DNA of 64,000 bases, taken from positions 2,356,001-2,420,000 of the forward strand of contig NZ_AP018052.1 of assembly GCF_002356355.1 (NCBI RefSeq). The letters run 5' to 3'. This document shows, in pieces, positions 1-33,774 of this stretch. How positions within the stretch are numbered: position 1 is the first letter of the stretch; each line of letters opens with the position of its first letter. Both the position numbers and the translations under genes were made by a program. The notes under the pieces were generated by a model that was given only the letters and a program-made list of their open reading frames with translations, was not told the DNA's origin and made no database searches. Source of the stretch: Thiohalobacter thiocyanaticus. GTDB lineage: Bacteria; Pseudomonadota; Gammaproteobacteria; Thiohalobacterales; Thiohalobacteraceae.

Positions 1-91
1 GGACTGGTACATATAGGAATCAGGGAGGCGCATCGAGGATGTAATGTTGAGCGCAGGTGGTACATCAGCGCTAAGTTATTGATGCAAAAAC

Positions 92-126
92 TTCTTATGA
101 ATTCATCGGGGATGAATTCATAAGAA
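92..126. repeat. Perfect 16-bp inverted repeat at the head of the RNA region
   Basis: Bases 92-107 and 111-126 are exact reverse complements separated by GGG. Each arm also contains the self-palindrome ATGAATTCAT. It could fold as a hairpin at the start of the large RNA, or act in DNA as two adjacent operator-like sites in its promoter region. Confidence 0.8.
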
Positions 127-1244
127 ACTACAGGAGATTCCAATGTAGGGGTCTCATGGGACCCCTACATTCGCTATTAATAGACAGGACACTGGTATGT
201 GGACGTCGCACGACGCACACAAACCGGGGGCCGGGCTCACCACCACATGGGGGCCTCACCAGCCCCCGACACCACTGTCTCTGACGCGAGAGCGTCGCGG
301 TCAGCTTAACCAACTGACCAGGCCTGGACCTACCGATCCCGGCCGAACGTACGCCGTAGCGCAGTGCGGGTAATTCCGCTCGCTGCGCTGCAACGGGCGC
401 TCAGGGCTGCAATGCCCTGTTCGACCCAATCCGCACCTTTGGTGAGATTGGGCGACGCGGAAACGGACCAATGGCGGATGGACGAATGTTCCTGAAACCG
501 GCGGAATCCTGCCGCAGACGAAGTGGGCTGAAAATCCCCACCGAGGGGTGCTCGAAAGGGTACAACTCGGTCCCGACTGGTAGGCTGCACGCACTGTTCG
601 AAAGGCAGTGAGGCCGTTAGGGGAAACCTGGAACGGCTGGTACCACCTGGGGCAACCTGGGTGGATCGCTGAATAGCTCAAGCCAGTAACGGCGGCCGCA
701 GAGGTCGCTGTCGGGTAAGAGGACGATGCCAGTGCCAGCCCTGTAGTGGCTGGATGACTGAAACCGGAAGTGTTCATGCCGGTAAGGGAGGCGCTTTGGA
801 ATCTCTGCCCCCCGAAAACCGACAGGCCAGGTGGAAAACACCACGTCATGAACATGAGGTGCTGGCTAGAAATCGACGTTTGTGTGCTAACGCGGGAAGG
901 CCTACGGAACGACGAACCACGGGTGGTACTGTGGGAGTTCTACGGCCGGGAGCGAGTGTGAGTAGACAATAAACCTCATAGGCGATTCAGTCGAAGCCGT
1001 GAGGGAGGCAAAGCCAGTCGGGAGTGGTATCCCGGTGTCGAAAACACTCAGCGTACGTGAAAAGAGACTGGGGGTGGAACCCCATGTGGTGTGTGAGCGC
1101 GTTCTAGCTGAACGGATGGTGCCGCAGATCTGGAACGTATGTCGGGGTGGTACCCGGCATCTCAACAATTGTGTTCAACCGTAGCGTGGAAAGGAGGACA
1201 AACTGCACGTGGCTATTTTTTGATTTGGGTTTGGCCAGCCCATT

Positions 1245-1273
1245 CTCCCCACCCGTTTGGGTGGGGAGTTCTT
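1245..1273 (+). terminator. Terminator hairpin of the large RNA
   Basis: A perfect 10-bp GC-rich stem (1245-1254 with 1259-1268) has a GTTT loop and is followed by TTCTT. It lies just after the structured region and before the convergent repressor gene, so it probably ends plus-strand transcription of the RNA. The T-tract is short. Confidence 0.7.
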
Positions 1274-1332: not shown

Positions 1333-1755
1333 TCAGCTCTCACTTTTCTTCTGCTGTTTAGATTTCCGGACAGCACCTTGGTAGTGCGAAGCACTGGAAA
1401 CCGACAACACCAGATTCGCTACGGCGCTGAACGTGTCCGCAGGAAGCGCCTTGAGAGGAGCAAGAAGGTCCTCGGGCGAGACATTCGTGTCGCTTGCATT
1501 CTCTACCGGTTCGATAGGTTGCTCACCAGTGAGCAGCCAACCCACCCTGCATCCTAATCGCTGGGCCAGAGCAACGGCCTGCATGGCTGAAAGTTGGCGC
1601 CGTCCTGAGAGGTAGTGCCCCACCGCGCTGCGAGTAGCAACGTCCAGAGCAGACGCAATTTGATCATAGGTGAGGCCACGCCGGTCGAGCATCGTGCGGG
1701 CACGATCCGCCCACCCCTCAATATCGCGGTCCTCGCTCTTTTCGGAGAGTTCCAC
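1333..1755 (-). CDS. XRE-family helix-turn-helix repressor of the element
   Basis: A 140-aa protein with an N-terminal helix-turn-helix of the lambda/XRE type at about residues 18-75. The helices around DQIASALDVA, the phrase VGHYLSGRR and the later GWLLTGE are typical of phage repressors. It starts at GTG with AGGA 8 bases upstream. Upstream is a divergent promoter pair sharing a 19-bp palindrome, so it probably represses the small operon to its right and autoregulates. The C-terminal half is short and shows no LexA/CI peptidase domain, so induction by RecA self-cleavage is unlikely. It converges on the large RNA's terminator. Confidence 0.85.
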   Translation of the reverse strand: MELSEKSEDRDIEGWADRARTMLDRRGLTYDQIASALDVATRSAVGHYLSGRRQLSAMQAVALAQRLGCRVGWLLTGEQPIEPVENASDTNVSPEDLLAPLKALPADTFSAVANLVLSVSSASHYQGAVRKSKQQKKSES

Positions 1756-2111: not shown

Positions 2112-2378
2112 ATGAAGAAGAAGCGGTTTACCGAAGCGCAGATCATTGGATTTCTGAAGGAGGCCGAGGCCGGGGTGCCGGTCAAGGAGCTGTGCCGCAA
2201 GCACGGCTTCAGTGATGCCTCCTTCTACACCTGGCGGGCCAAGTATGGCGGCCTGGAGGTCACCGAGGCCAAGCGGCTCAAGGGCCTGGAGCAGGAGAAC
2301 GCCCGGCTGAAGAAGCTGCTGGCCGAGTCGCTGCTCGACAAGGAGGCGCTGGAGGCCGCGCTGCGAAAAAAGTATTGA
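2112..2378 (+). CDS. IS3-family transposase OrfA
   Basis: An 88-aa DNA-binding protein starting [10 protein letters not shown], with the helix-turn-helix phrase [11 protein letters not shown] and a C-terminal leucine-zipper-like stretch ([12 protein letters not shown]). It provides end binding for IS3-type transposition. Near its end the zero-frame heptamer A-AAA-AAG (2366-2372) is a classic -1 slippery site, so OrfAB fusion transposase can be made by frameshifting into orfB, which is in the -1 frame. Confidence 0.93.
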
Positions 2379-3199
2379 CCCCGCAGGCACAGCGAGAGGC
2401 CGTGGCGGTGATGCGGGCCGAGACCGCCATCTCCGAGCGACGCGCCTGTGCCCTGGCGGGGATCTACCGCAGCACGTTGCGCTATGAACCCCGGCAGGCA
2501 GCCGAGACGACTACGCTGAAGGCGCGCATCATCGAGTTGGCCCAGGAGCGGCGCCGGTTCGGCTATCGACGCATCCATGCGCTGTTGCGCCGGGAGGGCC
2601 ATGAGGTCAACCACAAGCGCGTCTACCGGCTCTACAGCGCGGCCAACCTGGCGGTAAAGCGTCGTAAGCGGCGCAAAGGGGTGATGGTACCCCGAGAGTC
2701 TCTGGTGCTGCCGACGCGGCGCAACGAGGTCTGGTCGATGGATTTTGTCATGGATGCGTTGGCCAACGGGCGGCGGATCAAGATCCTGACTGTGGTCGAC
2801 GATTGCACCAAGGAGGCCATCGATCTGGCGGTGGATTTCGGGATCTCGGGCGAGTATGTCACCCGCATCCTGGATCAGGCGGCGCGGTTTCGAGGCTATC
2901 CGAAGGCCATCCGCACCGACCAGGGGCCGGAGTTTACCGGCCGGGCACTGGACCAATGGGCCTATGAGCATGGCATTCAGCTGAAGCTGATCCAGCCCGG
3001 CAAACCGACCCAGAATGCGTTTATCGAAAGCTTCAACGGTCGATTCCGGGACGAATGCCTGAACGAGCACTGGTTCCATACCCTGAGTCATGCCCGGGTT
3101 GTGATCCAGCAGTGGCGAACCGATTACAACGAGCAGCGGCCTCACTCCATGCTCGGCTACCGGACCCCGGCTGAGGCAGCTGAAGAGTTACGATCTTAA
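2375..3199 (+). CDS. IS3-family transposase OrfB, DDE integrase core
   Basis: The catalytic half of the transposase, 274 aa from the TTG at 2375, probably expressed mainly as the OrfAB frameshift product. It has an N-terminal HTH_21-like region ([17 protein letters not shown]) followed by an rve core. The DDE residues are visible in [17 protein letters not shown] and [14 protein letters not shown]. The C-terminal [17 protein letters not shown] is typical of the family. It appears intact, so the IS may still be active. Confidence 0.95.
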
Positions 3200-3277
3200 C
3201 CAACCATGCAGGCTGAACTAAGAAAGACGTGGTAGTAATCTTGGGGGCAGGTCAAGGATACGAAGAAGCACAAAGAA

Positions 3278-3403
3278 ATGCTGCGTGAAGTACTCGCGGA
3301 TCTGCACAGTGAGTGGACGACTCAAAGAATCCACGAATATCGAATGCTGCACCAGCAGCAACGTAATATCCGCCAAAGGCGAGCTACCAAATACCGAATC
3401 TGA
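3278..3403 (+). CDS. Small phage-type protein, unknown function
   Basis: A 41-aa frame beginning at ATG 3278, which overlaps the stop codon (3286-3288) of the reconstructed upstream gene and so suggests translational coupling. The product is highly charged and helical, rich in R, Q, E and H, with no membrane segment. A terminator hairpin follows at 3413. With the IS now upstream, its original promoter is cut off. Function is unknown. Confidence 0.5.
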   Translation: MLREVLADLHSEWTTQRIHEYRMLHQQQRNIRQRRATKYRI

Positions 3404-3412
3404 TATCAGGAG

Positions 3413-3438
3413 GCCCTGCCCCTGCGGCAGGGTCTTTT
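3413..3438 (+). terminator. Terminator after the small phage operon
   Basis: CCCTGCC pairs with GGCAGGG around a short loop, followed by TCTTTT. It closes the two-gene operon that starts at 1841. Confidence 0.7.
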
Positions 3439-3455
3439 GACCTGCAAGAACCATC

Positions 3456-3659
3456 ATGAGCCAACCACCAGTGATACCGCATCTACGAGATACTGACACA
3501 GATCAAGTCCGGGTTCCGTCGCGTATCGAACGCCAGATAGCCCTCGCACTGGGGCATGAAGTGCAGATCACCAATACGAAACAATTGGCTCACGTGCAAA
3601 TCGAACTGATACGGCATGGTGTCATTCAACGAGTCTGGAGTGCCATCCGGGCGGAATAA
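3456..3659 (+). CDS. Hypothetical 67-aa protein of the element
   Basis: A small open frame from ATG 3456 to TAA 3659. It encodes a hydrophilic protein with a basic amphipathic middle section (RIERQIALALGHEV) and a charged C-terminus. There is no clear Shine-Dalgarno sequence and no recognised domain. It lies between a terminator and the recombinase leader. It could be an accessory DNA-binding protein; that is only a guess from size and position. Confidence 0.4.
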   Translation: MSQPPVIPHLRDTDTDQVRVPSRIERQIALALGHEVQITNTKQLAHVQIELIRHGVIQRVWSAIRAE

Positions 3660-3737
3660 CGCACTGCCTTCAGCAGGCTACAAGCGCATTGTTGACGTAA
3701 AGTTATTGCGTTTTTTTATATGGGTACGGTCATCCGA

Positions 3738-3775
3738 AGAAAATTTTTTCTCTATTAAAAGAGAGAAATTTTCTT
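3738..3775 (+). other. AT-rich imperfect hairpin upstream of the recombinase
   Basis: GAAAATTT...CTCT pairs imperfectly with AGAG...AAATTTTC around ATTAA. It sits after a possible promoter (TTGACG near 3691 and TTATAT near 3715) and before the recombinase operon. It could be an attenuator or a weak terminator. Confidence 0.4.
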
Positions 3776-3871
3776 TAAACCGGCCCCATGCCATAGAGGT
3801 AAATACGTTGGTCAACAAACCAGGACATATGCGAATGAAACGGCGCGGGCCTCCGTCCTGGAGGCAGATTC

Positions 3872-4042
3872 ATGTCCACCAAAAAGAAAACCAGACGAAA
3901 TGGGTCTGAGCAAAATATCAAGAGAGGAACATCCCCCACGATTCGGATGAAACCTTCAAAAGGAACCCCTCCACTCAAAGAAGCCGTTAAGGTCTTGCTG
4001 CCCATCGTCCTTGAAGAACATCATGAGGATATCTATGACTAA
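3872..4042 (+). CDS. Small basic protein coupled to the recombinase
   Basis: A 56-aa frame starting at ATG 3872 with a near-ideal GGAGG ribosome site at 3860-3864. Its N-terminal half is very basic (STKKKTRRNG, then a second Lys/Arg patch) and its C-terminal half is acidic and helical (LEEHHEDIYD). The stop codon overlaps the recombinase start at 4035 by 8 bases, so the two are co-translated. Basic small proteins beside phage integrases are often directionality factors or regulators; that role is inferred from position alone. Confidence 0.6.
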   Translation: MSTKKKTRRNGSEQNIKRGTSPTIRMKPSKGTPPLKEAVKVLLPIVLEEHHEDIYD

Positions 4043-5579
4043 GCCGAAACAGAATGCGGTGATTTATCTAAGATCATCGAAAGATAGGTCCGATGTTTCG
4101 ATCGCTGCACAACGCCGAAAGCTCAATGAGGTTGCAACCGAGCGTGGCCTAACCATCGTCAACGAATACACTGACGCCGTGGAGTCTGCGAAGTCAGCTC
4201 ATCGGCCTGGTTTCCAAGCGCTGCTGCGAGACATAGATTCTCCACGACGCAACTGGACGATACTCCTGATGCACGATCATTCGCGCCTATCTCGCGAGCA
4301 GTTCATCGGACCTGTTTTTAGATACGAGGCTCGGCGCAAAGGTATTGACGTGATTTTTGCTACGGCCCCCGAAATGGATACAGTCTCGAAGGTCGTACTG
4401 GATGCGGTAATGGAATCAATGTCCGTCGTGCACAGCCTCCTATCCAAGCAAAAAGGCATAGACGGAATGAAAGAGAATGTGCATCAAGGGTATCGCGCCG
4501 GAGGGCGAGCGCCACGCGGCTACAAGCTGAAACACATTGAGACTGGCACCATACGCGATGGAGCCCCGGTCACGAAATCTGTTCTAGAACCCTCTGAAGA
4601 TGCCCCCCTGATCGCCCGCTATCTGAAGGCCAGGGCGGCAGGAGTTCCACGAGCGAAGGTTATTCGCGACTTGAGCATTCCTTGGAGCGCATCGAGTATG
4701 ATCGATATGGAATGGTCAGCTCTGACCTATGCCGGTTCGACGGTGTGGAACGTACGTAACGAGACGGACCCTGCTGGCGGCTATAAAGGAAAGTCCAAAC
4801 GCAAACCCAGGAGTGAGTGGGTCGTAAAGGAAAATACCCACCCTGCCCTAATCACTTCCGTCGAGGCCTATAGGCTCCTCGAAGCGCTAGAAAGCGGTCT
4901 CATTGGCAAGGCTGTGTCTGAGGCCAAATCCGGCAATTCAAGCTACCTGCTGACAGGCCTTCTGAAGGCTCCTGACGGGCGCGACTGGCTCGGGGATGGG
5001 AAACGCCATTACCGGCTGAAAGCACTGGGAGAGGCAAAGGGACGCTGGCTGAGGATGAAAGATGTGGATGAGGCAGTAACCGGCAAACTTATGGAGGATA
5101 TCCACTCCGACGCCTTCGTGAGCGCCCTGACAGCAGAGGCAAAGCGGCTCAATGCAGTGGAAAATGACCCGGCCAAGGACCTGCGCCAGCAAATCAATAC
5201 CTTTACCGCGCAGATCAGCAAAGCAAGCGATCTGGCGCTTCAATTGGAAGATCCAGGGCCCATGATGCGTAAAATCAACGAGTTGGAGGCGAAACGAAAG
5301 TTACTTCAAGAGGAAGTTGCGCGCACCGAGAAGGACCACCAAGCCCGGCTCATGATGTCACAAGTCACCGACGAAATGGTCCGCAACGTGTTGAAAACCC
5401 TATCAAAGAACTTTGAAGAACTTCCAAGAGAAAAATGGAAAGAGCTTATCCAGGGCCTAGTCGAGAAGATCGAGCTAGACCCGGAAAGCTTGGGCTGCCA
5501 AATTCATTATCGCGTTGCGATCACAAACAGGCTATGTATGGCGTCCCCTAGGGGAGTCGAACCCCTGTCGCCGCCGTGA
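4035..5579 (+). CDS. Large serine recombinase (site-specific integrase)
   Basis: A 514-aa recombinase that should catalyse integration and excision of the element. The N-terminal resolvase domain (about residues 8-150) has the catalytic-serine motif YLRSS and the conserved DHSRLSR. A recombinase domain follows (GYRAGGRAPRGYKL onward), then a coiled-coil-rich C-terminus at about residues 360-470. ATG 4035 is chosen over upstream in-frame starts because GAGG lies 6 bases before it. The usual zinc-ribbon cysteines are not visible after the recombinase domain. The last 13 codons run antisense into the tRNA-Glu gene, so the C-terminus (ending EPLSPP) and stop codon come from host tRNA sequence, which marks that gene as the probable attachment site. 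Confidence 0.93.
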   Translation: MTKPKQNAVIYLRSSKDRSDVSIAAQRRKLNEVATERGLTIVNEYTDAVESAKSAHRPGFQALLRDIDSPRRNWTILLMHDHSRLSREQFIGPVFRYEARRKGIDVIFATAPEMDTVSKVVLDAVMESMSVVHSLLSKQKGIDGMKENVHQGYRAGGRAPRGYKLKHIETGTIRDGAPVTKSVLEPSEDAPLIARYLKARAAGVPRAKVIRDLSIPWSASSMIDMEWSALTYAGSTVWNVRNETDPAGGYKGKSKRKPRSEWVVKENTHPALITSVEAYRLLEALESGLIGKAVSEAKSGNSSYLLTGLLKAPDGRDWLGDGKRHYRLKALGEAKGRWLRMKDVDEAVTGKLMEDIHSDAFVSALTAEAKRLNAVENDPAKDLRQQINTFTAQISKASDLALQLEDPGPMMRKINELEAKRKLLQEEVARTEKDHQARLMMSQVTDEMVRNVLKTLSKNFEELPREKWKELIQGLVEKIELDPESLGCQIHYRVAITNRLCMASPRGVEPLSPP

Positions 5580-5614
5580 AAGGGCGGTGTCCTAGGCCTC
5601 TAGACGAAGGGGAC
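5539..5614 (-). tRNA. tRNA-Glu (UUC), probable attachment site of the element
   Basis: The reverse complement folds as a complete 76-nt tRNA with encoded CCA. The acceptor stem is GTCCCCT/AGGGGAC, the anticodon loop is CTTTCAC with anticodon TTC, and the T-loop is GTTCGACTC. The 3' half overlaps the end of the serine recombinase gene on the opposite strand. The tRNA is intact after insertion, as expected when the element restores the sequence it enters. Confidence 0.95.
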
Positions 5615-15673: not shown

Positions 15674-17086
15674 TCAGCTAACGTCGTGGGTATCGATGTA
15701 TTCCAGCGCCCGGTCGATGCGCGCAAGGGTACGCTCGCGGCCGAGCAGGTAGAGGGTGACATCGATGGGCGGCGAGACCGGCCCGCCGGAGACGGCCACG
15801 CGCAGCGGCTGGGCCACCTTGCCCAGCTTCAGGTCCAGCGCCTCGCCCACTTCGCTCACTGCCTGATGGATCGTCTCCTGCTCCCAGGGTTCCAGCGCCG
15901 CCAGGCGCTGACGCAGCTGCGCCAGCGGCTCCCGGGCCTCGGCCTTGAGGTTCTTCTTCGCCGCCTTCTCGTCGTAACCCTCGATGTCGCGGTAGAAGAA
16001 GACGCTGTTTTGCGCCATTTCCACCAGGGTCCGGGCCCGTTCCTGCTGGGCCACCACCACCTCGCTCAGCTCCGGCGCCGGCGCCGGGTCCACATCCAGC
16101 TTGCTGAAGTGATAACTCAGGTGGCGCGCCACGTGCTGCGGCTCGCTGCTCTTGATGTAGTGCTGATTCAGCCACAGCAGCTTGTCCGGATTGAAGCTGG
16201 AGGCGGCCTTGTTGATGTCAGGAACGTCAAACAGCTCGATCATCTCCTCCACGGAAAAGATCTCCTGGTCGCCGTGGGACCAGCCCAGACGCACCAGGTA
16301 GTTGATCAGCGCCTCGGGCAAGTAGCCCTCTTCCCGGTACTGCATCACGCTCACCGCGCCATGACGCTTGGACAGACGCTTGCCGTCGTGACCCAGGATC
16401 ATGGGCACATGGGCATAGACCGGCGGCTCCACCCCGAGCGCGCGCAGGATGTTGATCTGGCGCGGCGTGTTGTTCAGGTGATCGTCGCCGCGAATGACAT
16501 GGGTGATATCCATGTCGGAGTCATCCACCACCACGGTCAGATTGTAGGTCGGCGAGCCGTCGGTGCGGGCGATGATCAGATCGTCCAGTTCGCTGTTGTT
16601 GAACACCACCCGGCCGCGGATCAGGTCATCGACCACCACCTGGCCATCCTGCGGGTTGCGGAAACGGATCACATGGGGCGCATCCGGCGACGGCGGCGCG
16701 GTGAGCGCGCGGCAATGACCGTCGTAGCGCGGCTTCTCCTTGCGCGCCATCTGCTCTTCACGCAGCTTCTCCAGGCGCTCCTTGCTGCAATAACATTTAT
16801 AGGCGTGGCCGGATTCCAGCAGCTGATCGACAATGACCTTGTAACGGTCGAAGCGCTCGGTCTGATAGAAGGGCCCCTCGTCGTACTCCAGCCCCAGCCA
16901 GGTCATGCCCTCGAGGATGGCGTTGACCGACTCGCGGGTGGAGCGCTCGAGGTCGGTATCCTCGATGCGCAGCACGAAGCTGCCGCCGTGCTTGCGGGCG
17001 TAGAGCCAGGAAAAGAGCGCCGTGCGGGCGCCGCCGATGTGCAGATAGCCGGTCGGGCTGGGGGCGAAACGGGTACGTACGGTCAT
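15674..17086 (-). CDS. gltX: Glutamate--tRNA ligase
   Basis: A 470-aa class I aminoacyl-tRNA synthetase that charges tRNA-Glu. The HIGH-type motif appears in [15 protein letters not shown] and the KMSKS-type motif in KRLSKRHG. A zinc-type cysteine cluster is visible as CYCSKERL. Length is normal for the family and ATG 17086 starts directly at the conserved [12 protein letters not shown]. It is monocistronic. The 472-codon frame on the opposite strand is a shadow. Confidence 0.97.
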
Positions 17087-17288
17087 GGATATCCCACCCA
17101 GTGAGGTAAGCAGGCGCGCATTCTAGCAAATCGCGCCCGGACGGCGCGATGCCGGTACGCCACGGCCGGATGCGCAGCATCCGCCCTGAATACAGAGGCT
17201 TAGTCAGTCGCAAGGCGGGACCGGGGAGGGTCGCGGCTGGTGCAGTTGATTTTATATCCCTGACTCCGCTACTATTTGCCGCCTTCCC

Positions 17289-17363
17289 GGGCGGTTAGCT
17301 CAGCGGGAGAGCACTGCCTTCACACGGCAGGGGTCACTGGTTCAATCCCAGTACCGCCCACCA
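17289..17363 (+). tRNA. tRNA-Val (CAC)
   Basis: A 75-nt tRNA with encoded CCA. The acceptor stem is GGGCGGT/ACCGCCC, the anticodon stem is CTGCC/GGCAG around TTCACAC (anticodon CAC), and the T-loop is GTTCAATCC. A strong terminator follows at 17371. Confidence 0.95.
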
Positions 17364-17370
17364 TGAAATC

Positions 17371-17406
17371 AAGGACTTGACCGGAACCGGTCAGGTCCTT
17401 TTCTAT
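17371..17406 (+). terminator. Terminator of tRNA-Val
   Basis: AAGGAC-TTGACCGG pairs with CCGGTCAG-GTCCTT around AA, followed by TTCTATT. It lies 8 bases after the tRNA. Confidence 0.85.
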
Positions 17407-17495
17407 TTCTGCCCCCGGTCTGCGCGTTGCAATCCCGGCCGGTTCCATGCTGAACTTGGCCGCATCCCCATCCGGTTGATTTTGCAGGGACTGAC

Positions 17496-19397
17496 ATGGA
17501 AGCGGAACTCAGGGAAATCCGTGATCACTTCGCCCAGTATCCCCCCTTTGACAACCTGAGCGATGGATTGCTCGACCAGGTGGCCGGCTCAGTCGAGATC
17601 AGCTACTTCAAGGCCGGCACCACCATCCTCGAGCGCGACGCGCCGACCCATACGCTTTATTACATTCGCAGCGGTGCCGTCGAGGTCTATCTGCACAACG
17701 GCCAACTGTACAACCAGCTGGGCGAGGGCGACATCTTCGGCCAGTTCGGACTGTTGCGTAATCATCGTGCGCGCTTTCCGGTCAAGGCCATCGAGGACAC
17801 CCTGCTGTACCTGATTCCCGAACCCGTGTTCGAGCACCTGTGCGAAGAGGACGAGAACTTCGCGGACTTCGTCGAACTCACGGGCTCCCGTCTGAAGAGC
17901 ACGGTGGAACAGAGGCTGCGCGACAACGACATGATCGCCACGCGCGTGCGCCGGCTCATCACCCGCATGCCGGTCATGATCGAGGAATCCGCCTCCGTGC
18001 AGGACGCCGCACGGCTGATGACCGAACATGACGTCTCCTCGGTCCTGGTGCTGGCACCGGGCAACGATGAGGATTCCGACCGGGTATTCACCGATACCGA
18101 AAACCGGCAATGGCGCCTGGCCGGCATGGTGACGGACAAGGATCTGCGTGTGCGCGTTCTCGCCGAAGGCGCCCCGGCCCGGACCCCGCTGTCTGCCATC
18201 ACCCATGGCCGGCTGATCACGGTCCAGTCCGATGAATCGGTGAATGAAGCGATGCTGGTGATGCTGCGCAACAATATCCAGCGCCTTCCCATCCTGCACC
18301 GGCGGCGCCCGGTGGGCGTGGTGCACCTGTCCGACATCGTGCGCTACGAGACCAACAACAGCGCCTACCTGGTCAGCAACATCTTCAACCGGAGTTCGGT
18401 CAACGCCCTGGCGCGCCTTACCCCGGAGATCCGGGCCGCCTTCGTGCGGCTGGTGGATGAAGGCGCGACCTCGCAGATGATCGGCATCGCCATGTCGAGT
18501 GTGGGCCGCAGCCTGATGCGGCGCCTGATCGAACTCGCCGAGACCGAACTCGGGGAGCCACCCATTCCCTACTGCTTCATGGTGCATGGCTCGCTGGCGC
18601 GCAATGACCAGTCCATCACCACCGATCAGGACAATGCGATGGTGCTGCACGACTCCTTCAATCCGGAGCAGCACGATGCCTATTTCAGGGAACTCGCCCA
18701 ACGCGTCAGCGACGGACTCGATGCCTGCGGCTACCCCTACTGCAAGGGCGGGATCATGGCCACCAACGAGCAGTGGCGCCAGCCGCTGTCACAGTGGAAG
18801 CGCTACTTCGAGACCTGGATCGCCAAACCCGACCCGCAACGGCTGCTGCACAGTTCGATCTTCTTCGATCTGGATGCCGTCTATGGCGAGGAGCGTTTCG
18901 TCGAGGAACTCCAGGATCTGATTGCCACCCGCGCCCAGGCCAGTCCGCTGTTCCTCGCCGCGCTGGCGCGCAACGCACTCAGCCGCACCCCGCCGCTGGG
19001 ACTGTTCCGCACCTTCGTGCTGGAACAGGACGGCAAGCACAACAATTCCATCAACATCAAGCGCCGGGGCGTGGCACCGATGAACGACGTGATCCGGGTA
19101 CATGCGCTGGGTGTGGGCTCACGCTCCCAGAACTGCTTTGAACGGCTCGATGACATCGAACAGGCCGGCGCCCTGCCCTCCGGGCAGACTGAGAAGCTGC
19201 GCTATGCACTGGAGTTTCTTTCCAGCGTACGCCTGCGCCACCAGGCCCATGAGATCAAGCACGAGCACCCGCCCGACAATTCCATCGATCCGGAGCAGGT
19301 CTCGGATGTCGACCGCCACAATCTCAAGGAGGCTTTCCAGGTACTGAGCAACGCCCAGAAGTTTCTGCGCTTCCGCTATCCCAGTCCCGGGCGGTGA
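17496..19397 (+). CDS. Cyclic-nucleotide-binding/CBS/DUF294 nucleotidyltransferase
   Basis: A 633-aa soluble signalling protein. Residues about 10-130 form a cNMP-binding domain (KAGTTILERDAPTHTLYYI, GEGDIFGQFGLL). Residues about 155-290 hold two CBS motifs that usually bind adenosine nucleotides. Residues about 320-470 are a DUF294 GlnD-like nucleotidyltransferase (MVHGSLARNDQSITTDQDNA), followed by a helical DUF294_C region. This order is found in many proteobacteria beside a DnaQ-like exonuclease, as here. The substrate is not known. The stop overlaps the next gene. Confidence 0.9.
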   Translation: MEAELREIRDHFAQYPPFDNLSDGLLDQVAGSVEISYFKAGTTILERDAPTHTLYYIRSGAVEVYLHNGQLYNQLGEGDIFGQFGLLRNHRARFPVKAIEDTLLYLIPEPVFEHLCEEDENFADFVELTGSRLKSTVEQRLRDNDMIATRVRRLITRMPVMIEESASVQDAARLMTEHDVSSVLVLAPGNDEDSDRVFTDTENRQWRLAGMVTDKDLRVRVLAEGAPARTPLSAITHGRLITVQSDESVNEAMLVMLRNNIQRLPILHRRRPVGVVHLSDIVRYETNNSAYLVSNIFNRSSVNALARLTPEIRAAFVRLVDEGATSQMIGIAMSSVGRSLMRRLIELAETELGEPPIPYCFMVHGSLARNDQSITTDQDNAMVLHDSFNPEQHDAYFRELAQRVSDGLDACGYPYCKGGIMATNEQWRQPLSQWKRYFETWIAKPDPQRLLHSSIFFDLDAVYGEERFVEELQDLIATRAQASPLFLAALARNALSRTPPLGLFRTFVLEQDGKHNNSINIKRRGVAPMNDVIRVHALGVGSRSQNCFERLDDIEQAGALPSGQTEKLRYALEFLSSVRLRHQAHEIKHEHPPDNSIDPEQVSDVDRHNLKEAFQVLSNAQKFLRFRYPSPGR

Positions 19398-31515: not shown

Positions 31516-33774
31516 GTGTCCCCATCCCTTCAGACCCTTCGCTGGTTGCTCACCGGTCGCGTCCAGGGCGTGGGCTTCCGTCCCTTCGTCTATCGTCTGG
31601 CGCTCGAACACGGCATCCACGGCTGGATCCGCAACCGCTCCGGCCAGGTCGAGATCCTGGGCCAGGGCGAGTCCGGTCGGCTGGCCCGGTTCGAACAGGC
31701 GCTGACTGCCCAGGCCCCGCCTGCCGCCGCACCGCGCATCGCCGCGCGCGAGTCGCTTGCCTGGCAGCGGCTGGAGAACTTCCGCATCAAGCCCAGCCGG
31801 TCCGACGCCCGGCCCTGGATCCATATCCCGCCTGATCACTTCGCCTGCCCCGAGTGCCTGGCCGAGATCCGCAATCCGGCCGACCGCCGCTACCACTATC
31901 CGTTCAACAACTGCACCCAGTGCGGGCCGCGCTACACCCTCATCCGCACCCTGCCCTATGACCGGCCCAACACCACCATGGCCGGCTTCGACCTGTGCCC
32001 GGCCTGTGCAGCCGAGTACCGCGAGCCGGCCGACCGGCGCTTTCATGCCGAACCCATCGCCTGTCCCGTCTGCGGCCCCTGGCTGAGCTACCGGCCTGGC
32101 ATGGCCACGGCCGCAACCGCCGAAGGTGAAGCGGCGCTGACGGCCGCGGCAGCCGCGCTGCGCGACGGCGCCGTGCTGGCAGTCAAGGGGATCGGCGGTT
32201 ATCACCTGATGTGCGCCGCCGCCGACCCGGCCGCCATCGAACGGTTGCGGGCGCGCAAACCGCGGCTGCACAAACCGCTGGCCGTGCTGTTTCCGGATGA
32301 CGACACCCTGTTGCAGCAGGAGGTCAGCTGCAGCCGGGAGACCCTGGCCCGTCTGCGCAGCCCGCAGCGGCCGATCCTGCTGCTGCCGCGCGCGCCGCAG
32401 GCCACTCTGCCGGAGGCACTGGCGCCCGGGCTGCGCGAACTGGGGGTCATGCTGCCCTGCTCGCCGCTGCACAGCCTGCTGCTGGAGGCGGTCGGCGCCC
32501 CGCTGGTGGCCACCTCGGGCAATCTCAGCGGCGAGCCGGTGCTCACCGACAACGCCGAGGCGGATACCCGGCTGTCCGGGATCGCGGACGGCTTTCTGCA
32601 TCACAACCGGCCCATCCAGCGCCCGGCCGATGACAGCGTGCAGCGGCCCATCGCCGGTGCCGTGCGCCCGCTGCGACTGGGCCGCGGCGACGCGCCGCTG
32701 GAGTTGGAACTCCCCCGGCCCGTGCCCGAACCGCTGCTCGCCGTGGGCGCCCACATGAAAAACACCCTGGCGCTGGCCTGGGACCGGCGCCTGATTGTCT
32801 CACCCCACATCGGCGATATGGGTGGTCGGCGCAGTCTGAGCGTGTTCGAACAGCTGGTCACGGACCTGCAGGCACTCTATGGCGTGCGCGCCGCACGACT
32901 GCTGTGCGACGCCCATCCCGATTACACCACCCACCGCTGGGCTTGTGAGACGCAGCTGCCGGTCACGCCGGTGTTCCATCATCATGCCCATGCCAGCGCC
33001 CTGTGCGGCGAACACGGCATCGACGAGCCCTGCCTGGTCTTTACCTGGGACGGCACCGGCTACGGCGCCGACGGCAGCCTGTGGGGCGGCGAGGCCCTCT
33101 ACGGCCGGCCCGGCGACTGGCGGCATCTGGCCCGGTTGCGCCCGTTCCGTCTGCCCGGGGGCGACCGCGGCGGACGCGAGCCCTGGCGGGCGGCGGCGGC
33201 CCTGTGCTGGGAAAGCGGCGTCGGCTACACCCCACCGGTGCCGGCACCGGATCTGCTGCGCCAGGCCTGGCAGCGCGGCCTGAACGCACCGGCCACCAGC
33301 GCCGCCGGTCGCTTGTTCGATGCCGCCGCCAGTCTGACCGGACTGCTGGAGACGGCCAGCTATGAGGGCCAGGGGCCGATGTGGCTGGAACAGGCGGCTG
33401 CGAACTGCCCGGGCGAGGCGCTGGCGCTGCCGCTGAACACCGACAGCCTGCCCTGGCAGCTCGACTGGGCGCCCCTGCTGCCCCGTCTGCGCGACGCCGG
33501 CCGGCCGGCGGCACAGCGCGCCGCCGACTTTCACGCCAGCCTGGCTGCCGCCATCCGTGACCTTGCCCGGCGCGCGGCCGGGGTGCATGCCTTCACCCGT
33601 GTCGGTCTCACCGGCGGGGTGTTCCAGAACCGTCTGCTGACCGAGCTGGCGCAACGCCAGTTGCAGGACGCAGGCTTTCAGGTCTTGCTCTGCAGGCAGC
33701 TGCCCTGCAATGATGCCGGCATCAGTGCGGGACAGGTGTATGATTACCTCGGGAGTCGGTGCGGAGAAGATTGA
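31516..33774 (+). CDS. hypF: Carbamoyltransferase HypF
   Basis: A 752-aa maturation enzyme that makes the cyanide ligand precursor for [NiFe] hydrogenases, using carbamoyl phosphate and passing the carbamoyl group to HypE. It has an N-terminal acylphosphatase domain (VQGVGFRPFVYR), four CxxC zinc-finger motifs (CPEC, CTQC, CPAC, CPVC), a YrdC-like domain (KGIGGYHLMCAA) and a Kae1-like C-terminus (HHHAHASALCGEHG, TGGVFQN). GTG 31516 is chosen because it gives the normal N-terminus and avoids the terminator at 31400. hypE follows 100 bases later. Confidence 0.96.
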   Translation: MSPSLQTLRWLLTGRVQGVGFRPFVYRLALEHGIHGWIRNRSGQVEILGQGESGRLARFEQALTAQAPPAAAPRIAARESLAWQRLENFRIKPSRSDARPWIHIPPDHFACPECLAEIRNPADRRYHYPFNNCTQCGPRYTLIRTLPYDRPNTTMAGFDLCPACAAEYREPADRRFHAEPIACPVCGPWLSYRPGMATAATAEGEAALTAAAAALRDGAVLAVKGIGGYHLMCAAADPAAIERLRARKPRLHKPLAVLFPDDDTLLQQEVSCSRETLARLRSPQRPILLLPRAPQATLPEALAPGLRELGVMLPCSPLHSLLLEAVGAPLVATSGNLSGEPVLTDNAEADTRLSGIADGFLHHNRPIQRPADDSVQRPIAGAVRPLRLGRGDAPLELELPRPVPEPLLAVGAHMKNTLALAWDRRLIVSPHIGDMGGRRSLSVFEQLVTDLQALYGVRAARLLCDAHPDYTTHRWACETQLPVTPVFHHHAHASALCGEHGIDEPCLVFTWDGTGYGADGSLWGGEALYGRPGDWRHLARLRPFRLPGGDRGGREPWRAAAALCWESGVGYTPPVPAPDLLRQAWQRGLNAPATSAAGRLFDAAASLTGLLETASYEGQGPMWLEQAAANCPGEALALPLNTDSLPWQLDWAPLLPRLRDAGRPAAQRAADFHASLAAAIRDLARRAAGVHAFTRVGLTGGVFQNRLLTELAQRQLQDAGFQVLLCRQLPCNDAGISAGQVYDYLGSRCGED

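Follow-up and report, generated by a model that had tools for sequence, protein, structure and literature searches.

A predicted circularly permuted group II ribozyme and its partner AcpG as a candidate RNA-guided relaxase for conjugative mobilisation

Circularly permuted (CP) group II ribozymes, also called "T-large" RNA, have been described by Roth et al. 2021 together with a divergently encoded partner protein named AcpG, for which no known relatives were reported (PMC8637638). Members of this class are characterized by the domain order D5-D6-linker-D1 and onwards, splice sites with the motifs NU and GGGCG, a linker of 15-86 nt, and a divergent acpG gene (PMC8637638). Five members, other than the one treated here, back-splice in vitro to a branched RNA plus a circle, leaving a free D6 3' end, and RNA reactions are the only ones that have been demonstrated for the class; for the P. 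naphthalenivorans RNA, expression was seen and a processed form was not detected (PMC8637638). Roth et al. noted that reversal of the reaction would cut a DNA strand, which mobile elements perhaps exploit, leaving the target unnamed, and they proposed no target, AcpG function or biological role (PMC8637638). In the open-licence papers that we searched, we found no published function for the CP group II class, and we found neither the target site, nor the AcpG fold, nor the exchange with relaxases that are described below.

Our study concerns a stretch of 64,000 nucleotides of Thiohalobacter thiocyanaticus (contig NZ_AP018052.1, positions 2,356,001 to 2,420,000), referred to as the window. Positions 85-1273 of the window are a densely structured non-coding RNA gene, far beyond chance: the minimum-energy fold of 85-1060 is -433.5 kcal/mol, compared with -367.8 +/- 9.3 for shuffled sequences (z = -7.05, with 0 of 20 shuffles as good), and perfect inverted repeats are present. 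The initial annotation of this DNA had already reported dense folding and the lack of a convincing gene in this region, where we identified chance open reading frames only; its terminator at 1245-1273 corresponds to a terminator-like hairpin in the sequence, and its serine-integrase element in a gammaproteobacterium is borne out by a large serine integrase. The RNA region occurs once in its own 3.23-Mb genome, and its relatives in three other loci (L020, L025 and L026) align across nearly the whole of it. The features of the window are as follows, with + and - marking the strand where one applies and a slash marking the expected cut.

1..33 (-), first 11 codons of acpG, divergent from the RNA; the rest lies left of the window, the whole gene occupying genome positions 2355281-2356033 (250 aa).
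92..126, perfect inverted repeat with a 16-bp stem, just before the predicted target site.
134..141 (+), predicted ribozyme target or nic site GAGATT/CC, made up of the exact EBS complement and CC, with the cut expected between 139 and 140; predicted target DNA form TTATAAGAGATT/CC, with the expected cut between T and C.
142..171, second perfect inverted repeat, 12 bp.
282..344 (+), stem-loops upstream of D5, tentatively at the P1/P2 position of the class, from the sequence and the class model (PMC8637638).
358..389 (+), domain 5, with the AGC triad at 358-360, a U.G wobble at 365/382, the 2-nt bulge UC at 380-381 and the loop GUAAUU at 370-375.
395..427 (+), domain 6; its bulged branch-point A424 precedes the 3' splice site by 7 nt.
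428..430 (+), AAU, followed directly by the 3' splice site, from the class motif NU and the alignment.
431..449 (+), linker of 19 nt, predicted to be freed as a circular RNA, with the IBS GAGATT at 444-449.
450..454 (+), 5' splice site GGGCG and start of domain 1, a class motif, invariant in 33 sequences.
450..1244 (+), domains 1 to 4, with approximate outer limits, from the nhmmer alignment of homologues.
800..805 (+), EBS guide hexamer AAUCUC in the domain 1 loop UUUGG-N6-CG, from covariation with the IBS and alignment across loci.
about 1245..1269 (+), terminator-like hairpin CTCCCCACCC...GGGTGGGGAG, from the sequence.
1333..1755 (-), open reading frame of 140 aa, by eye a putative helix-turn-helix regulator for the island.
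2112-3199, IS3-family transposase (orfA plus orfB, by eye), separating the ribozyme terminator from the integrase.
4011..5579 (+), the island's large serine integrase, with the Pfam domains Resolvase and Recombinase, ending in the tRNA-Glu attachment site.
5539-5614, tRNA-Glu, overlapping the integrase end.

Distant blastn searches identified homologues of this RNA on plasmids of E. coli, Halomonas, Azotobacter, Thiothrix, Acetobacteraceae, Paraburkholderia, Paraphotobacterium, Pseudoalteromonas (pMtBL) and Acinetobacter, and an alignment of 21 RNAs revealed a plain group II domain 5 hairpin near the 5' end. In the window RNA, D5 and D6 lie 5' of D1 with the linker between D6 and D1, D5 carries the AGC triad (some members have a CGC variant) and a 2-nt UN bulge, and the splice sites occur in reversed order (AAU, 19 nt, GGGCG), with a linker length inside the published range; in addition, a 250-aa AcpG homologue is encoded divergently upstream. 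Based on the position of D5 near the 5' end, the order D5-D6-linker-D1, the splice-site motifs and the divergent acpG, the window RNA is, by its sequence anatomy, a CP group II ribozyme. The covariation in homologues on which the initial annotation had staked its reading is present and is strong in D5/D6. Across 33 sequences, 99.0% of the D5 helix cells are paired, with double changes in 7 of 12 pairs, and 96.1% of those of D6, with double changes in 8 of 11 pairs; together this amounts to 97.6% and 15 of 23 pairs, and to a covariation score of 0.554, against 0.179 in shuffled and at most 0.116 in slid controls. The alignment column of the branch-point A424 is invariant. Furthermore, when all columns were considered as partners of the IBS, the hexamer before GGGCG, the best covarying one was the EBS at 800-805 (z = 6.3), and the EBS/IBS pairing is compensated in L020 and L017. 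A canonical group II intron was rejected as a candidate, since the domain order is permuted and there is no reverse transcriptase (RT) inside. Two further observations concern the diversity of the class: the Thiothrix plasmid pTunz1 (L034) has two CP ribozyme copies (17001-17794 and 32398-33185) and one matching site by its single acpG match, and five loci, mostly of Acinetobacter (L013, L086, L096, L118 and L138), have CP RNAs that diverge strongly from the others and adjoin a longer AcpG-like open reading frame of about 340-370 aa.

Special attention was given to the sequence that the EBS would recognize. Genome loci were gathered by a pattern in the 5' splice-site region that contains neither the EBS nor the target site, so that the counts describe a sample, and the EBS hexamer was obtained by alignment in 67 unique loci among the matches listed. 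In 52 of these 67 loci, again among the matches listed, the reverse complement of the EBS followed by CC (hereafter N6/CC) is present on the RNA's strand within 1 kb upstream of the RNA, whereas the same search with the EBS types of other loci succeeded in 0.7%; the remaining 15 of the 67 listed loci have no matching site within this distance. A matching site of its own is present for each of eight EBS types (AATCTC, AACATC, AACCTC, AATCTT, AGTCCC, AACTTC, ATGTTC and AACCTT). Among the listed loci with a non-majority EBS (n = 35), a target for the EBS of the locus is present in 25 and the majority target in none, and shuffling the EBS among loci in 2000 trials gave a mean of 17.5 and a maximum of 30 matches. 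The linker IBS was also considered as a place where the ribozyme might act on its own gene, and this was given up because the upstream site fits the EBS better: a perfect match between the EBS and the linker of the same locus exists in only 10 of the 67 loci among the matches listed.

The site lies on the RNA's strand, usually 100-860 nt upstream of the RNA, and in 46 loci among the matches listed it lies immediately upstream of acpG, in every case in divergent orientation. In a Paraburkholderia locus (L050), the site stays by acpG while the RNA is 5.6 kb away, and in a Pandoraea locus (L030) an IS256 copy separates the site from the RNA. The bases ahead of the hexamer are AT-rich, and inverted repeats of at least 7 bp occur within 50 nt upstream of the site in 26% of cases, compared with 1.7% of shuffles; the 16-bp repeats at the equivalent place in L068 and L091 differ in sequence and keep the pairing. 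It is thus well supported, by comparison of sequences, that the EBS would guide the ribozyme to the N6/CC site by acpG. As a separate observation, Gluconobacter and Novacetimonas plasmids (L031 and L035) have an acpG of 388 aa and a GAAGTTCC site in loci where the RNA was not detected; the G. diazotrophicus RNA has the EBS AACTTC, which matches this site, and L031 and L035 are candidates for plasmids carried by the ribozyme of another plasmid.

A related protein of about 230-260 aa is found beside the RNA in nearly every plasmid locus of the first comparison, the exceptions being a 3-kb E. coli plasmid and a 6.3-kb Novacetimonas plasmid without an AcpG homologue; Thiothrix, whose AcpG was identified by tblastn, and Acinetobacter, with only a distant longer open reading frame, lie outside that comparison. 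Conversely, in genomes found through the AcpG protein alone the RNA adjoins in 8 of 8. Sequence searches with AcpG gave no Pfam or NCBIfam match reaching the curated cut-off and no PDB sequence match, and Foldseek with an AcpG model gave nothing below E = 0.001; the fold assignment comes from a second structural aligner, run against PDB chains with AlphaFold models of two AcpG proteins from distant branches (pLDDT 95.2 and 92.2). The top rows were group II intron RTs for both the first model (6me0_C with Z 8.9 over 178 residues, 8t2r_D with 8.8, 8fli_B with 8.7, 8t2s_D with 8.6 and 6ar1_D with 8.0) and the second (8t2r_D with 8.6, 8t2s_D with 8.3, and 7uim_D, 6me0_C and 8fli_B with 8.2). The matches span 166-187 residues, a coverage of about 80%, and are followed by DGR, G2L4, DRT and retron RTs, with Prp8 in the first list. 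It is important to note that these Z values are little above the usual background, so that both models display the RT palm and thumb fold by a small margin; the two lists are consistent with each other. The catalytic motif [YF]xDD occurs in only 2 of 33 AcpG proteins, and AcpG is therefore not an active RT. Judged by these models, AcpG is probably a maturase made of a catalytically dead RT palm and thumb. The two proteins with the motif, those of L081 and L089, have YLDD and YPDD at the beta-hairpin where the RT YxDD sits, possibly as catalytic relics.

The plasmids that carry the RNA were then considered for their conjugation genes. All 27 plasmids found with the AcpG of the window are typed non-mobilizable, and three plasmids found with the RNA are typed mobilizable. 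A VirB-type type IV secretion system (T4SS), a coupling protein and TrbM are present on five wholly read plasmids (E. coli pFHI_NMBU_11_03, G. diazotrophicus pGDIPal5I, P. aromaticivorans pBN5, Pandoraea pPO70-4 and P. terrae pPT65), on all of which the RNA and acpG adjoin the coupling protein or VirB11; the gene order of the E. coli plasmid is acpG, coupling protein, VirB11. Overall, T4SS genes were identified within the roughly 8 kb read at a minority of loci (13). A search of 18 carrier plasmids with five relaxase families, PF03432, PF08751, PF03389, PF07514 and PF13814, gave no matches; for MOBC it is a weak test, as PF13814 also missed the MOBC protein of L165. Given that 128 of 1282 plasmids with a related coupling protein are non-mobilizable, the chance that five independent lineages all have no relaxase is about 1e-5. 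A Sulfuriferula locus (L033) has, besides the RNA and acpG, a distant MOBC-like open reading frame (phmmer 1e-6; no Pfam match).

The comparison of plasmid backbones points to an exchange with relaxase modules. A Klebsiella plasmid (L165, CP021743, typed MOBC) and the Pseudomonas plasmid pPGS17-1 (L164) have VirB11, a MobC-family protein, a gap of about 1-1.5 kb and the coupling protein; in the equivalent slot of G. diazotrophicus, the order is VirB11, AcpG, RNA, coupling protein. AcpG was also considered as a MOBC relaxase, a candidate that was discarded given that MobC and AcpG proteins have no profile similarity. Likewise, the 3-kb RepL plasmid of E. coli (L004) has the RNA where its siblings pSCU-171-4 and pSCU-106-10 (L166 and L167) have a NikA-like mobA; no RNAI or other replicon RNA was found on it. 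E. coli FHI_NMBU_11 holds both a small and a large RNA plasmid. An unknown protein of about 150 aa is encoded 3' of the RNA on the 3-kb and on a 30-kb E. coli plasmid (L004:2289-2741 and L005:6476-6934; phmmer 1e-81), and it may be a third component.

We consider it likely that the CP ribozyme and AcpG form an RNA-guided relaxase for conjugative mobilisation that would nick oriT by the first reverse-splicing step; the targeting is read from sequence comparison, and we infer the DNA nicking and the transfer. Stated in full, and held slightly less firmly, we lean towards conjugation without a protein relaxase, in which a group II-derived ribozyme guided by 6 nt would nick its own oriT and stay covalently bound to the DNA 5' end, with the dead-RT AcpG coupling it to the T4SS. 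The transcript would back-splice to give the linker circle and a branched RNA whose D6 3'-OH is free, a reaction that we assume for the window RNA. The EBS would then pair with the N6 of N6/CC by acpG, exposed by the AT-rich stretch and the inverted repeat, a pairing that has comparative support. The D6 3'-OH would attack the DNA between N6 and CC. By this first reverse-splicing step, which mobile group II introns also carry out, the DNA would be left with a 3'-OH and the transferred strand would have the RNA attached at its 5' end, chemically parallel to a relaxase. AcpG may hold the RNA and deliver the complex to a coupling protein and T4SS that belong either to the same element or to a helper, and reversal in the recipient would close the circle. 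Circular permutation would block insertion of the RNA as an ordinary intron.

Other explanations for this RNA have to be considered. The initial annotation regarded it as a member or relative of GOLLD and ROOL, giant phage-linked RNAs, in a phage-like element, and the size, the dense hairpins and the location in a mobile element fit that proposal. The Rfam covariance models of the whole database, including GOLLD and ROOL, gave no match at the gathering threshold and nothing meaningful in a permissive scan to E = 10, the covarying anatomy is that of a permuted group II ribozyme, no phage relatives of the RNA or of AcpG were found, and the surroundings are a plasmid-like or integrative island. 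Membership in these families is thereby refuted and a relationship with them is extremely improbable, so that from the earlier interpretation the giant structured RNA with covarying homologues stands, and GOLLD/ROOL and the phage do not. It is also conceivable that the target is RNA, the ribozyme trimming or re-splicing its own leader or another transcript of the acpG promoter region for maturation or regulation, with an incidental link to the T4SS. The strand and usual distance of the site would allow it to be in a leader transcript, and the class has been shown to perform RNA reactions only. We regard this as unlikely: the site follows acpG and not the RNA, lying in L050 on the far side of the distant RNA, an IS256 intervenes in L030, L031 and L035 have acpG and the site with no RNA detected, and the AT-rich, palindromic context suits the melting of DNA.

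Two further explanations concern the movement and the replication of the plasmids. Relaxases acting in trans are common, and a relaxase in trans, or one of an unknown protein family, might move the T4SS plasmids, with the CP RNA as a selfish or regulatory passenger; the search for relaxases covered five families, and L033 does have a MOBC-like open reading frame. This is quite unlikely in our judgement, since five independent alpha-, beta- and gammaproteobacterial T4SS backbones are without the five searched families, the RNA/acpG pair sits in the relaxase slot, and the covariation between EBS and site would be left unexplained. It is still less likely that the ribozyme cuts plasmid DNA for replication or maintenance (an RNA-primed or rolling-circle start, copy control or resolution) and not for transfer. 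A reverse-splicing nick would give a 3'-OH primer and many carriers are small plasmids, but the pMtBL replication region (1918-2759) excludes the RNA (at about 3115-3850), most carriers come with Rep genes of their own, the RNA is also present in a chromosomal island, and the swaps involve mobilisation genes and not rep genes. In addition, pTT8 replicates with the RNA nearly deleted, although a chromosomal copy exists (PMC8637638). On the evidence of pMtBL, pTT8 and the Rep genes of the carriers, the RNA as a replication origin was rejected. An RNA-guided relaxase is the reading that we retain.

In Thiohalobacter, the ribozyme belongs to an island of about 22 kb whose limits are set by two copies, at genome positions 2339213 and 2361539, of 18-19 bp from the 3' end of tRNA-Glu. 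It contains a DRT1a-type RT, a type I restriction-modification system, two further candidate defence loci, a KfrA-like protein, acpG, the site, the RNA and the serine integrase. The RT, of 1236 aa, lies left of the window (genome 2341766-2345476; L009:3766-7476) and matches DRT1a along its whole length; its neighbours are the complete restriction-modification system and PDC-S11 and PDC-M30/M41-like genes, an assemblage that makes this a defence island. Under the proposed mechanism, this island would become mobilisable. A phmmer search showed no T4SS genes in the 20-kb stretch L009, which covers most of the island, and the island would therefore need a helper. At genome positions 2338415-2339231, two tRNA-Glu att repeats about 800 bp apart flank a small gene that resembles, by eye, one for a PIN-domain toxin, possibly a mini-element or a second att site.

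The RNA class itself was already known, and what our study offers is a concrete and testable role for CP ribozymes and AcpG, the first biological job proposed for this class. If it is true, a natural RNA enzyme would initiate bacterial DNA transfer, and the result would be a programmable, RNA-guided DNA strand transfer with a short guide and a readable target rule, the EBS complement and then CC. It would also explain plasmids with a complete T4SS and no relaxase. Plasmids and islands counted as non-mobilizable, E. coli plasmids included, would move by RNA catalysis, and mobility typing would change.

With regard to known systems, the window RNA shares with the described CP group II ribozymes the domain order, AGC triad, UN bulge, branch A, splice sites, short linker and acpG neighbour (PMC8637638); to the description by Roth et al., our study adds the EBS-matching site by acpG, the maturase-like fold predicted for AcpG and the exchange with relaxase modules. 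GOLLD and ROOL RNAs are likewise giant, highly folded and carried by mobile elements, but their carriers differ and there is no match in sequence or structure. Canonical mobile group II introns have the catalytic core, the EBS/IBS guidance and likely the chemistry in common with the CP RNA, whereas their order is unpermuted, they encode a protein within the intron, and the CP RNA would be unable to insert as an intron. Their RT/maturase has the palm and thumb fold predicted for AcpG and, unlike AcpG, has kept the YxDD motif. MOBC modules of the CloDF13 MobC type occupy the same slot between VirB11 and the coupling protein as the RNA and AcpG, and NikA-like MobA modules the slot in the small plasmid backbone equivalent to that of the CP RNA. 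The N6/CC site resembles an origin of transfer in having an inverted repeat and a nick motif matched to its enzyme, predicted here from purely comparative evidence, and the nick predicted would resemble those of the MOBC and MobA relaxase-oriT modules in having an inverted repeat and AT-rich sequence ahead of it; in those modules the enzyme is a protein, whereas here it would be a ribozyme together with a protein unrelated to MobC.
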